Notes under the pieces: generated by a model
Told to the model about the DNA's origin: nothing
Database searches by the model: none
The model's input: only the letters and a program-made list of their open reading frames with translations
Shown here: one piece after another, positions 13,133 to 18,866 of the stretch
Position numbering within the stretch: position 1 is the stretch's first letter
How the letters are laid out: every line of letters begins with the position of its first letter
NCBI GenBank assembly: GCA_011526015.1
Contig: WYBG01000503.1
Coordinates: forward strand, 1-32,510
From: Deltaproteobacteria bacterium
Lineage (GTDB): Bacteria; Calditrichota; Calditrichia; RBG-13-44-9; J075
Length of the DNA stretch: 32,510 nucleotides
Direction of reading: 5' to 3'
Program-made: the position numbers and the translations under genes

Positions 13133-13631
13133 GATCGGTTTCTCCCGGGTTTGGTATGTGGCATCGAATAATTGTTTTGTAATCGTTAAGGGTTTTAATA
13201 TATAGCAGATTGCCTGTTTTTGCAACTAATTGGAATGCCCTCAAATTTCTTTTTGGAAATTCGTTATGGTTTTGATAATTTCTCTCGTTTGGAATGACCG
13301 TACGATAAAATTATCAAAAAACTCGATTAAGGCGGCAGCGATGCGTTATGATCCCGAGAAACATCATCGCCGTTCCATCCGGTTGCGCGGATATGATTAT
13401 TCTCGCCCCGGCGCCTATTTTGTAACGATTTGCGTAAAAAACCGGGAATGCCTTTTGGGAGAAATTCGAGGCGGAAAAATGATATTGAACGATTTTGGCA
13501 AAATCATTGATTATCATTGGCGAGAAATTCCCACCCATTTTCAGAATGTGAAATTGGATGAATTCGTCGTCATGCCCAATCATTTTCATGCGGTTTTGTG
13601 GTTGGTGGGCGGCGTCGGCGACGGTGACGGC

Positions 13632-13704
13632 GTAGGGGCGAAGCATTCCGGGCAACCCCTTTCTTCGGAACACGACGTCGTCGCCGGGAATGCTTCGCCC
13701 CTAC
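13632..13704 (+). repeat. REP unit A (73 bp), inside RAYT1
   Basis: It begins GTAG and ends CTAC. Arms GTAGGGGCGAAGCATTCC and GGAATGCTTCGCCCCTAC pair perfectly over 18 bp around a spacer containing CACGACGTCGTCGCC. A GTAG tetranucleotide at the hairpin foot is the known recognition feature of RAYT-associated REPs. In RAYT1 it is read as VGAKHSGQ...AGNASPL. Confidence 0.9.
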
Positions 13705-13774
13705 ACCGCCACAACCGCCACAACCACCGCCACAACCACCACAACCACCGCCACCACCACCCCAACCGCCCTGC
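13705..13774 (+). repeat. CCGCCACAACC low-complexity tract in RAYT1
   Basis: Degenerate repeats of CCGCCACAACC/CCACAACC encode a His/Asn/Arg-rich stretch (HRHNRHNHRHNHHNHRHHH). Comparable C/A-rich tracts follow REP units in RAYT2 (18361-18410) and in the intergenic module (18761-18846), always ending at GGCACCAAACCGGGATCATT. Confidence 0.75.
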
Positions 13775-14004
13775 TGGCACCAAACCGGGATCATTGTCCG
13801 CCATTATTCAAAATTTCACGTCAATAACGTCGCGCAAAATGAACCGAATCCGCAAAACGCCCGGCAAAAATTATGGCAGCGAAATTTTCATGACCACATC
13901 ATCCGCAACGACCGGGAATTATTCAATATCCGGCAATACATCATTAACAATCCCGCAAAATGGGAATTGGATAAAAACAACCCGATTGATTGGGAAGCAG
14001 AAAA

Positions 14005-16650
14005 ATGATCGGTAAATCTATACTTCACTATAAAATTGTAGAAAAGCTTGGCGAGGGCGGCATGGGCGTGGTGTATCTTGCGGAAGATACCAAACTGGAA
14101 CGCAAGGTTGCCATCAAATTCCTGCCGCGCCATATCGCCGCCAATGCCCGGGAGCGCCAGCGGTTTAAGATCGAAGCAAAAGCCGCCGCAGCGTTGAACC
14201 ACCCCAACATTGCCACGATTCATGCCATTGAAGAAACCGAAGGCGACATTTTCATCGTGATGGAATACATCGAAGGCCGGGAATTGGGGGACATTATCGC
14301 AGGGGCGCATCGCGATGCGCCCCAACATTTCGGGCAACCAATTGGAACCGAACACGACGACGTTGCCGGGAATGTAACCGTTGTAGGGGCGAAGCATTCC
14401 GGGCAAGCAATTCCTTCCAAACAAAACGACATCGTCGGGAATGCTTCGCCCCTACAATTACCGGTGGATCAAATCATCCCCATCGCCGCCCAAATCGCCG
14501 AAGGATTACAGGACGCCCACGAAAAAGGCATCGTGCACCGCGACATCAAATCCTCCAATATTATGATTGACGGGAGAGGGCGGGTCAAAATCATGGATTT
14601 TGGCCTGGCGAAGGTGCGCGGCGGGGCGCAACTCACCAAAGAACATACCACGCTCGGCACTGCCGCTTATATGTCGCCGGAACAGGCGCGGGGGAAAGCG
14701 GTGGATCAGCGCACCGACATCTGGTCGTTCGGGGTAGTGTTTTACGAAATGCTCACCGGGGAGCTGCCTTTCAAAAGCGAATTTGAACAGGCGCTGATTT
14801 ATTTAATCTTAAATGAAGAACCGCAGCCGGTGACCGGTTTACGGCCGGAAATTCCCTTCGAGATCGAACAGATCATCCGCAAAACCCTGCAAAAGGAAGC
14901 GCACCACCGCTATGGCTCCATGAGAGAGTTGCTCGAGGACCTGGAAAACTTTCGCCGGGGGATTCGCGCGGTTCCGGCGCACATAACCACACCGGAACCG
15001 GCGGCAGCAGAAAATTCCGTTGCGGTGATCGATTTTGCGAATATCAGCGGCGACGCGGCGTTTGACTGGCTGTGCGGCGGAATCGCCGAGACGGTCACCG
15101 TTGACCTCAAGAAAATTTCGGCGCTCAAAGTGGCGAGCCGGGAAAGGGTTGCGAATGCGCTGGCGCTTTTCGCGGGAAAGAAAATTAGCGAAGAACACAC
15201 TCTCATTATTGGTAAGACGCTGGGCGTACAATGGATAGTCTGGGGCGGATTCCAAAAAATTGGCCAGGCGCTCAGGATCACCGCTCACTTCACCGAAGTC
15301 TCTACCGGCGAGTGGGTGGGCTCGACCCGGGCGGACGGGATGATGGAGGATATTTTCCAGCTTCAGGATCAAATCATCGCCGCCCTGATGGATACCTTGA
15401 ACCTGGCGCTGATGCCCTCGGAAATCACAAAGATCGAAACGCCGGAAACCGTGGATATCGAGGCGTACGAATATTGCGCCAGGGCCAGGCAGTTGTTCTA
15501 CCGGTTTGGCAAATCCAGTTTCGAACAAGCCCGGCAGTTGTTTGAGCAAGCGATTGCGATTGATCCCCAATACGCGCTGGCTTATTCCGGCCTGGGGAGC
15601 GTGCACATTTACCGGTTTATCGGCCAGGCCGACGTGCGCGACCTTGACGTGGGCATCTCCTATTTGCAAAAGGCCATCGAATACGAACCGGACCTGGCCG
15701 AGCCATACCTCAGGCTGACCTACGCCTATACCCGCAGACAAAGATTACAGGAGGCGGTGCAAACCGGGGAGAAGGCAGCGGCGCTGGATCCGGAGAATTT
15801 TCACGCCCATTACTTTTTAGCAGTGGCCTGCTGGTTCAAGGCGTTGCAGGAATATGAGTTGACCCTGGCGGCTGACGCGGTGGCGCATCTGAAAAAGACC
15901 ATCGCCTTGCAGCCGCAATACGAACCGGCGCGCCAGGTGATTGCCTGGATTTATATGCAAAACGGCCGCTACTCCGAAGCCAAAGAACACTGGGAGCAGG
16001 CGGTTGTAATTGAAGAATCCGGGAAATTTGAAGGCGAGAGATTTGTGGGCGCTTTCACTCACCTGGGAAACTGGTACGCTCGCAATCAGCAATTAGATGC
16101 GGCGCTGGAGTGCTACCAACGCTCCCTGAAATTACTGGAAAAATCCGACCATCTCTATAGCAATACCGTCCGTGTTCTTACTTATTATCATTGGGGAGCG
16201 CTTCATTATCATTTTGGCCAGTACGATGAAGCCCTTAAACTTTACAAGACCGCGCGCGAGCTCATTGCCAAAAATCCCAAAGCGCTGGGAACCGGGTATC
16301 TTCTGGTTAAAATCCAGATCTGGCAGGCCCGCAGCTTTTATAAACTGGGGATGCAGCGGGAAGCAAAACAGAGTTTAGAAGCGGCCCTTGCTTTGTTTGA
16401 ATCCAGAACGGGGTACGATTTCAACATTTATATGGAGGGAAACGACGCTAACAGCTATTACGAATTCGCCGGTTATTATGCACTGGGAAATCAACCGCAA
16501 AAAGCCCTCCAATATTTACGCAGGGCTGTTGCCTGCGGCTGGGCGGATCTCCCCTCTCTCGAAGCGGATGGAGGCTTTGCCCGGCTCCGGGAGGATGCGG
16601 AGTATCAAAAAATTGTGCAGGAGATAAAGGTGCGGATGCAGTTGTTGTGA
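14005..16650 (+). CDS. Ser/Thr protein kinase with TolB-like and TPR domains, REP insertion in kinase domain
   Basis: An 881-residue protein. The kinase domain has glycine loop GEGGMGVVY (16-24), VAIK Lys38, HRDIKSSN (Asp180), DFG (198-200), GTAAYMSPEQARG and DIWSFGVVFYEMLTGELPF. Then a TolB/FlgO-like domain (SVAVIDFANISGD ... LGVQWIVWGGFQKIG, about 345-475) and TPR repeats to the C-terminus. No transmembrane helix is obvious between kinase and TolB parts. ATG 14005 is chosen because MIGKSILHYKIVEKLGEGG is the family's usual start. Residues ~99-151, between the hinge/alphaD and LPVDQIIPIAAQIAEGL, are encoded by a REP array and have no counterpart in usual members. All catalytic residues remain, so activity is plausible. 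Its start overlaps the RAYT1 stop. Confidence 0.93.
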   Translation: MIGKSILHYKIVEKLGEGGMGVVYLAEDTKLERKVAIKFLPRHIAANARERQRFKIEAKAAAALNHPNIATIHAIEETEGDIFIVMEYIEGRELGDIIAGAHRDAPQHFGQPIGTEHDDVAGNVTVVGAKHSGQAIPSKQNDIVGNASPLQLPVDQIIPIAAQIAEGLQDAHEKGIVHRDIKSSNIMIDGRGRVKIMDFGLAKVRGGAQLTKEHTTLGTAAYMSPEQARGKAVDQRTDIWSFGVVFYEMLTGELPFKSEFEQALIYLILNEEPQPVTGLRPEIPFEIEQIIRKTLQKEAHHRYGSMRELLEDLENFRRGIRAVPAHITTPEPAAAENSVAVIDFANISGDAAFDWLCGGIAETVTVDLKKISALKVASRERVANALALFAGKKISEEHTLIIGKTLGVQWIVWGGFQKIGQALRITAHFTEVSTGEWVGSTRADGMMEDIFQLQDQIIAALMDTLNLALMPSEITKIETPETVDIEAYEYCARARQLFYRFGKSSFEQARQLFEQAIAIDPQYALAYSGLGSVHIYRFIGQADVRDLDVGISYLQKAIEYEPDLAEPYLRLTYAYTRRQRLQEAVQTGEKAAALDPENFHAHYFLAVACWFKALQEYELTLAADAVAHLKKTIALQPQYEPARQVIAWIYMQNGRYSEAKEHWEQAVVIEESGKFEGERFVGAFTHLGNWYARNQQLDAALECYQRSLKLLEKSDHLYSNTVRVLTYYHWGALHYHFGQYDEALKLYKTARELIAKNPKALGTGYLLVKIQIWQARSFYKLGMQREAKQSLEAALALFESRTGYDFNIYMEGNDANSYYEFAGYYALGNQPQKALQYLRRAVACGWADLPSLEADGGFARLREDAEYQKIVQEIKVRMQLL
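14299..14455 (+). repeat. REP array (1.5 units) inside kinase gene
   Basis: A diverged first unit starts GCAG and holds a perfect 22-bp palindrome at 14302-14323 (GGGGCGCATCG and its complement), then CGGGCAACCAATTGGAACCG and a GCCGGGAA end. The complete 73-bp unit B follows at 14383-14455 with the same 18-bp arms as unit A. Read in the kinase frame it encodes VGAKHSGQAIPS...VGNASPL without a stop. Confidence 0.9.
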
Positions 16651-16672: not shown

Positions 16673-16896
16673 TCTGACGGGAGGCAGAGCCTCACCAGAT
16701 GCGTCACACAGCAGAGCTGTGCGACGAGCATGAGTTAATGACGGTAATAGTGACATTCACTATTCTCAATTCACCGTTCACCATTCACTATTGCTGTTAT
16801 TTTTCAATTTAGTGCAGCGGGTCAAGAATTGTGAATGGAGAACAGTGAATTGTGAATGCTTAACTTAATGGCAATGAGGCTCTGCCTCCCGTCAGA
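16673..16896. repeat. 224-bp palindromic element with 22-bp perfect inverted ends
   Basis: The ends 16673-16694 (TCTGACGGGAGGCAGAGCCT...) and 16875-16896 are exact reverse complements. Inside are a hairpin GTCACACAGC/GCTGTGCGAC near 16703-16725, and inverted ATTCAC-rich tracts (16755-16793 against 16826-16859, ATTCACTATT / GAATTGTGAAT). It fills the gap between the kinase and the NmrA-type gene; no gene is present. It could end kinase transcription. Confidence 0.8.
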
Positions 16897-17911: not shown

Positions 17912-18631
17912 ATGAAATACGATCCGGATAAACATCACCGCAAAACGATCCGGTTAAAGGGATATGATTATTCCAACGCCGGCGCCTATTTTGTAACGAT
18001 TTGCGTACAAAACCGGGAATGCCTCTTTGGCGAAATCCAAAACGGGAAAATGATATTGAACGATTTTGGTAAAATAATTGATCATCATTGGAGAAATATT
18101 CCCTCTCATTTTCAGAATGTGGCATTGGATGAATATATCGTTATGCCGAATCATTTTCATGGGGTTTTATGGTTGGTGGGTGATGGGAATACGGCAACCC
18201 CCGAAAACGCCGTAACCGGGATAACCGTAGGGGCGAAGCATTCCGGGCAAATAATTGTAAACGAACACGACGATGTCGCCGGGAACGTAGGGGCGATGCA
18301 TTCCCAAACACTAATTTATTCCAAACAAGACGATGTTGCCAGGAATGCATCGCCCCTACACGTGGATCACCACCCCAACCGCCGCCCCAACCATCCCGAT
18401 CACCCCAACGGCACCAAACCGGGATCATTGTCCGCCATTATTCAAAATTTCACGTCAATAACGTCCCGCAAAATCAATCGAATTCGCAAAACGCCCGGCA
18501 AAAAATTATGGCAGCGAAATTTTCATGATCGCATCATCCGCAACGATAAAGAATTATTCAATATTCGCCAATACATTATTGATAATCCCCTGAAATGGGA
18601 AGTTGATAATGAAAATCCCAATGCGGTTTGA
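17912..18631 (+). CDS. REP-associated tyrosine transposase RAYT2
   Basis: A 239-residue Y1 HUH transposase, apparently intact. MKYDPDKHHRKTIRLKGYDY, GAYFVTICVQNRECLFGEI, the HUH motif MPNHFHGVLW, GTKPGSLSAIIQNFTSITSR, KLWQRNFHDRIIRNDKELFN and IRQYIIDNPLKW with the presumed nucleophilic Tyr are all present. By family it nicks and joins single-stranded REP hairpins bearing a GTAG foot, and such hairpins lie inside this gene (codons ~106-150) and from 5 nt after its stop. The REP plus CCCCAACC-rich tract replaces the variable loop between HUH strand and GTKPGS. ATG 17912 matches the RAYT1 start; the open frame from 17804 overlaps the NmrA gene. The ribosome binding site is weak, as is usual for transposases. 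Confidence 0.92.
   Translation: MKYDPDKHHRKTIRLKGYDYSNAGAYFVTICVQNRECLFGEIQNGKMILNDFGKIIDHHWRNIPSHFQNVALDEYIVMPNHFHGVLWLVGDGNTATPENAVTGITVGAKHSGQIIVNEHDDVAGNVGAMHSQTLIYSKQDDVARNASPLHVDHHPNRRPNHPDHPNGTKPGSLSAIIQNFTSITSRKINRIRKTPGKKLWQRNFHDRIIRNDKELFNIRQYIIDNPLKWEVDNENPNAV
18227..18359 (+). repeat. REP array (1.5 units) inside RAYT2
   Basis: A partial unit starts GTAGGGGCGAAGCATTCCGG at 18227. The complete 73-bp unit C follows at 18287-18359. In unit C the arms read GTAGGGGCGATGCATTCC and GGAATGCATCGCCCCTAC: one A-to-T change relative to the other units is matched on the opposite arm, so pairing is kept. It is translated as VGAMHSQT...ARNASPL in the RAYT2 frame. Confidence 0.9.
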
Positions 18632-18635
18632 AATT

Positions 18636-18866
18636 GCAGGGGCGTTGCGGGCAACCAATTGCAACCGAACAGGACGTTGCCGGGAACGTAGGGGCGAAGC
18701 ATTCCGGGCAACCCATTGCAACCCAACACGACGACGTCGCCGGGAATGCTTCGCCCCTACAACACCCCAACCAACCCAACCAACCCAACCTACCCAACCT
18801 ACCCAACCACCCCAACCATCCCCATCACCGCCCGATCACCCCCACCGGCACCAAACCGGGATCATT
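18636..18866 (+). repeat. Intergenic REP module with CCCAACC tract and RAYT-derived end
   Basis: It starts 5 nt after the RAYT2 stop with a partial unit beginning GCAGGGGCG. The complete 73-bp unit D is at 18688-18760. A CCCAACCAACC/CCTACCCAACC tract follows (18761-18846), then GGCACCAAACCGGGATCATT at 18847-18866. That last block is identical to the RAYT1 and RAYT2 sequence encoding GTKPGS, after which similarity ends. The module thus repeats the inner section of the RAYT genes outside a RAYT gene and covers the last codons of the GNAT gene. Confidence 0.88.

Follow-up and report, generated by a model that had tools for sequence, protein, structure and literature searches.

An in-frame, REP-derived insert in the catalytic domain of a Hanks-type Ser/Thr kinase shared by two Calditrichaceae species

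The kinase gene, its insert and the neighbouring transposase genes

The stretch of DNA analysed here (32,510 nucleotides; "the window") carries a Hanks-type Ser/Thr kinase gene with a REP-associated tyrosine transposase gene (RAYT) on either side, RAYT-A being adjacent to the kinase and RAYT-B lying downstream (Table 1). The kinase frame is open from its ATG at 14005 to the stop codon at 16648–16650. Its product matches the kinase domain family PF00069 (E = 7e-51) as well as TPR families, and it possesses the residues diagnostic of Hanks-type kinases: G16 and G18 of the Gly loop, the VAIK lysine (K38), HRD (H178–D180), DFG (D198–G200) and SPE (P225–E226). The original prediction had placed a REP array in frame in the catalytic domain of this kinase, with VAIK, HRD, DFG and SPE kept and 730 residues following residue 151. 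We confirmed each of these points; codon 99 begins at 14299, and the inserted codons are 100–151.

Table 1. Features of the kinase locus and their positions in the window
Feature	Position	Strand	Evidence
RAYT-A, frameshifted REP-associated tyrosine transposase	13341..14008	+	1-nt deletion in poly-A run relative to RAYT-B; weak NF047646 match, N-terminal half
REP pair in frame within RAYT-A	13632..13704	+	
Hanks-type Ser/Thr kinase with C-terminal TPR region, 881 aa	14005..16650	+	Pfam; sister orthologue
REP-derived in-frame insert, codons 100–151, between alphaD and alphaE	14302..14457	+	Homologue alignment; PDB alignment to 4eqm/9ymt; AlphaFold2
Degenerate REP unit, 27 codons, missing in sister	14302..14382	+	DNA alignment with G001; unit comparison
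Complete double-foot REP pair GTAGGGGCGAAGCATTCC ... GGAATGCTTCGCCCCTAC, translated VGAKHS...NASPL	14383..14455	+	Inverted repeat; genome copies; RNA hairpin
RAYT-B, intact REP-associated tyrosine transposase; NHFH, WQ, YIIDNP	17912..18631	+	NF047646, E = 1e-18; Y1_Tnp, E = 6e-4
REP array in frame within RAYT-B	18227..18359	+	
REP pair 3' of RAYT-B	18688..18760	+	

As had been proposed for the usual members of the family, 11 of 13 aligned homologous kinases have a short loop of a few residues at the position of the insert; in S. aureus PknB it measures 4 residues, as compared with 52 here (residue 99 aligns to residue 103, and 152 to 108). The two homologues with a long loop are the orthologue in a sister species and L016. 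The latter was considered as a possible equivalent loop of non-REP origin, and it too proved to carry a palindromic element, of a different sequence. In an AlphaFold2 model, for which the input alignment comprised the window, sister and viral-contig kinases, the insert lies between alphaD (residues 94–103) and alphaE (154–173). Confidence is mostly above 90 in the core and falls below 50 (pLDDT) at residues 104–147, and the best PDB match of the model is S. aureus Stk1, with a TM-score of 0.89 by target length. Thus, the structure prediction called for in the original proposal yields an intact kinase fold with a loop that is predicted to be disordered.

The insert consists of a degenerate REP unit, which opens with a perfect 22-bp palindrome (GGGGCGCATCGCGATGCGCCCC), followed by a complete pair. 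The arms of the pair (14381–14400 and 14438–14457) are 20 bp long, 100% complementary and 37 nt apart, and the palindrome GTAGGGGCGAAGCATTCC...GGAATGCTTCGCCCCTAC is bounded by a GT[AG]G foot on the 5' side and a C[TC]AC foot on the 3' side. The insert (157 bp) matches six other loci in its own genome (best E = 1e-26). A pattern search for the core motif GTAGGGGCGAWGCATTC, allowing ≤1 mismatch, found 37 hits in this genome, 34 in the sister and none in the reversed control. These matches and motif counts argue that the insert is not a chance palindrome, and they reveal the multiple dispersed copies expected of a REP family. Classical REPs typically number more than 100 copies; the copy number here is lower. 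The nucleotide identity to other REPs also led us to reject a native variable loop as the origin of the insert. A search across the order with the 26-aa REP peptide, a query blind to other REP families, returned no match beyond the genus.

Neither transposase reaches the curated cut-off of 80 bits for NF047646 (REP_Tyr_transpos): RAYT-B scores 67.2, in two stretches divided by its REP linker, and RAYT-A scores 24.2. Our use of the RAYT label is therefore founded on motifs, together with the REP embedded in each gene. RAYT-B possesses NHFH, WQ and YIIDNP, the last being one letter off the subclass 2.4 consensus (NH[IFV]H, WQ, YIxNNP), and the other-frame tail of RAYT-A has WQ and YIINNP; by these motifs, both would fit TnpA-REP subclass 2.4. 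The cognate REP is found both inside the RAYT-B ORF, leaving the frame unbroken, and beside it. In the kinase, RAYT-A and RAYT-B, the REP is read in one common frame, VGAKHS...NASPL, with small changes.

Age of the insert and selection on the kinase

An orthologue of the kinase, 86–87% identical and in conserved synteny, is present in Calditrichaceae bacterium MAG_33 (JABWBP01; G001), a member of the same genus that we call the sister. We looked there for a broken ORF, as the original prediction had advised, and found the frame unbroken. The orthologue carries a single REP pair, in frame and at exactly the same site, which adds 27 codons rather than 52. Because site and frame are shared, the insertion is older than the split of the two Calditrichaceae species; the unequal number of added codons indicates that the insert has since been altered in length by whole codons. 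The kinase gene was found in these two species only, both of them metagenome assemblies, and the genomes compared in this work are mostly draft or metagenome.

Between the window and the sister, dN/dS was 0.132 for codons 1–99 and 0.127 for codons 152–320, with dS at ~0.36. It was 0.19 over everything except the insert, and 0.13–0.31 across all segments outside it. Inside the insert, in contrast, dN/dS was 1.53, a value that stems from 11 changes (9 nonsynonymous and 2 synonymous) in 25 comparable codons and that REP exchange rather than point substitution could explain. The ratio of nonsynonymous to synonymous changes differed between the insert and the rest (Fisher p = 0.026). Flanks that are constrained around an insert that is apparently not constitute our main evidence, drawn from sequence comparison, that the REP is probably translated and tolerated. 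Since dN/dS is 0.13 on both sides and ~1.5 within, the kinase appears to have stayed functional, and the insert to have been tolerated rather than optimised.

Of the 74 positions compared in the REP of the sister kinase, 70 are identical in the second REP within RAYT-B of the same genome, as against 63 of 74 in the REP of the orthologous kinase. Because of these identities, we suggest that the REP was swapped between kinase and transposase copies, by conversion or by re-insertion. The original prediction had named the adjacent RAYT as the likely mobiliser. The connection to a RAYT stands, but RAYT-A carries a frameshift in the window, and in the sister most of it has been lost, leaving a remnant with several deletions. 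The intact RAYT-B is for that reason the better candidate, and it may have moved the REP.

REPs within RAYT genes and other kinases

We surveyed 61 RAYT ORFs, drawn from genomes both inside and outside the same class. The linker 3' of the HuH motif contained a significant inverted repeat in 48 of them and GTAGGGG or its complement in 40. In fixed 60-codon windows, the inverted repeat was significant in 42 of 58 cases after the HuH motif versus 2 of 58 before it (p = 1e-15). The single-contig genome G017 has just three copies of the cognate REP (C1:2254068–2254866), all in a stretch of 0.8 kb around and inside the RAYT and one of them within its ORF; in G033, the sole cognate copy lies within the RAYT ORF (C298:10183–10210). 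RAYT ORFs with an in-frame GTAG palindrome 3' of the HuH motif come from many genomes (ORFs at L122–L151, L203–L242 and window positions 17912–18631). CCCCTAC is read in two frames in RAYT ORFs, 22 times in each, and never in the third, though that frame is open. We had entertained REPs inside RAYTs as a discovery in its own right, and dropped the claim on finding them already described (PMC6006769).

Hybrid histidine kinases of the sister, and of a further genus in the family (G006), have the same REP in frame as well; there it occupies the linker that joins the HATPase domain to the receiver domain. The domain sets of these proteins are otherwise complete, and they have paralogues that lack the REP. 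Every non-transposase protein found here to carry the REP with domain support is a signalling kinase; long ORFs over REP clusters (L075, L080, L090, L092, L096, L097 and, at 333 aa, L091) match no Pfam family and were set aside as spurious. The histidine kinases with the REP lie at L087:2142–5999, L094:2229–5696, L102 and L103; L094 contains a fourfold repeat of a 20-aa unit. Another in-frame segment, of the PPSKGG...PFEGG type, is common to L087, L094 and L170, where it sits inside the HATPase domain and may be a further case of a palindromic element within a catalytic domain.

In three genomes, the pitch of the REP arms was 56 nt in 10 of 10 intragenic pairs as compared with 9 of 32 other pairs (p = 6e-5, which is optimistic because related copies, from the same RAYT subfamily and from paralogous histidine kinases, were counted). 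We counted as intergenic the REPs that lie in upstream extensions of gmk, of a CYTH gene and of a DUF6448 gene. The 56-nt pitch puts VGAKHS and NASPL into one frame.

The alphaD–alphaE loop also holds palindromic sequence, unlike that of the REP, in a kinase from another family of the class (G016); the loop is a recurrent, permissive insertion site. The loci concerned are L016:1813–1890 and L185:1–60; a neighbouring paralogue is without 24 nt of the palindromic sequence, a clean difference of 8 codons.

Origin of the insert and its precedents

We consider it very probable that a double-foot GTAG-REP, belonging to a subclass 2.4 TnpA-REP/RAYT system, entered the alphaD–alphaE loop of the kinase in an ancestor and was tolerated there. 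A RAYT would have mobilised a REP pair whose arm pitch keeps the frame, and the pair would have landed in a permissive surface loop before the two species split. Because the frame stayed open and the loop was exposed to solvent, the kinase would have kept working and remained under purifying selection. Unit-wise changes in multiples of three, together with exchange with a RAYT-embedded REP, would then have given rise to the present inserts, and the added peptide would be mostly a neutral, disordered loop. The site and frame common to both species, the selection on both sides, the REP identity and the predicted intact fold all speak for this history, as do the homologues that lack the insert, the closeness of the sister kinase REP to a RAYT-B REP, the reading frame shared with the RAYTs, the 56-nt pitch, the recurrence in hybrid histidine kinases and the earlier reports discussed below. 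Against it are the restriction of the gene to two species and the broken state, in both of them, of the RAYT that adjoins the kinase.

The original prediction went further, suggesting that the loop could alter regulation. A loop co-opted after insertion for kinase regulation or partner binding would agree with its being in frame in both species, with its position after alphaD near the hinge, and with the finding that, transposases aside, the REP-carrying proteins with domain support are without exception signalling kinases. However, the insert is evolving more quickly than other parts of the protein, with a higher ratio of nonsynonymous to synonymous changes, differs twofold in length between the species and is predicted to be disordered, and similar REP-coded sequence in unrelated proteins argues against a kinase-specific function. 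We therefore regard a functional loop as improbable. The same small likelihood attaches to a role at the RNA level, in which a hairpin in the mRNA would slow ribosomes or protect or process the transcript, the peptide being a by-product. The predicted hairpin is indeed strong (−43.6 kcal/mol, z = −8.6 here; −36.7 kcal/mol, z = −5.0 in the sister), but such a hairpin is expected of any REP pair, the hairpin in the kinase gene bears no sign of selection, and the second unit is missing in the sister.

The decay of the adjoining RAYT-A might suggest that the kinase gene, too, is a pseudogene in decay, the REP having by luck not yet brought a stop codon. This is contradicted by an ORF that is intact in both species, by catalytic residues that have been kept and by the low dN/dS outside the insert at a dS of ~0.36, and we give it very little credence. 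Less credible still is an assembly or binning artefact that joined a REP array to the kinase gene: the draft genome is fragmented (624 contigs), and repeats are prone to misassembly, but the sister has its REP at the identical site on a 90-kb contig with conserved synteny, which largely contradicts such an origin.

The ancestral REP insertion has precedents for both of its parts, and the element is of a known kind. In-frame GTAG-REPs have been described from numerous protein-coding genes; they usually contribute 20–30 aa, with clusters of up to 82 aa, and have been suggested to occupy flexible loops or linkers (Di Nocera 2013, PMC3733652). They share with the kinase element GTAG-tagged palindromic pairs within the ORFs of functional proteins. 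Double-foot REPs have been reported in the ORFs of subclass 2.4 tnpA-REP genes (Quentin 2018, PMC6006769), and the transposases here likewise have GTAG...CTAC palindromes in frame between the HuH and Y motifs, together with NH[IFV]H, WQ and YIxNNP. Thus, the REP inside a protein that the original prediction presented as unusual is real here, but the phenomenon had been described in both settings. Unlike the case in PMC6006769, whose text does not include Calditrichota, the REP is additionally present in a Ser/Thr kinase and in hybrid histidine kinases. The targets named in the main text of PMC3733652 belong to DNA repair, to replication and to RNA-related functions, with no kinase among them; relative to that text, a selection test and a cross-species comparison are also added here.

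The likeness to Rickettsia palindromic elements (RPEs) drawn in the original prediction is apt, in that both are palindromic and lie in frame in many protein genes. However, the R. conorii RPEs classified in PMC3733652 (RPE-4/RPE-6) end in CGTC, and CGTC repeats are without a known dedicated transposase, whereas the kinase element has a different sequence, GTAG feet and a link to a RAYT. QMITEs of Coxiella burnetii (PMC5896051) are similarly small inverted repeats that sometimes extend or enter ORFs in frame; unlike the element here, they are MITE families, and RAYTs are absent from the text of that paper. New here are the site in a kinase catalytic domain, the selection evidence from two species, the apparent exchange of REPs between kinase and transposase, the recurrence in histidine kinases and the frame-preserving intragenic pitch. 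The locus provides a clean natural case, in two comparable species, of a mobile palindrome in the catalytic domain of an enzyme that selection has kept.

We speculate that the RAYT-embedded REP is a ready-made coding cassette which enters host genes in frame, repeatedly donates disordered linkers to signalling proteins and is later exchanged between transposase and host copies. The REP would be free of stops and have a frame-preserving pitch because selection acts on the transposase ORF that holds it. We think this rather unlikely; if true, it would offer a testable route from relatives of transposons to linkers and loops in bacterial signalling proteins.

Both ends of the kinase gene show further features. 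At the 5' end, the TGA (14006–14008) that closes the other-frame tail of RAYT-A overlaps the kinase ATG at 14005 as ATGA (window 13995–14010), a junction retained in the sister despite the loss of most of RAYT-A; the kinase may in the past have been translationally coupled to a transposase. At the 3' end, inverted arms of 20 nt (CTGACGGGAGGCAGAGCCTC ... GAGGCTCTGCCTCCCGTCAG) enclose ~220 nt at 16674–16895, in a MITE-like arrangement.
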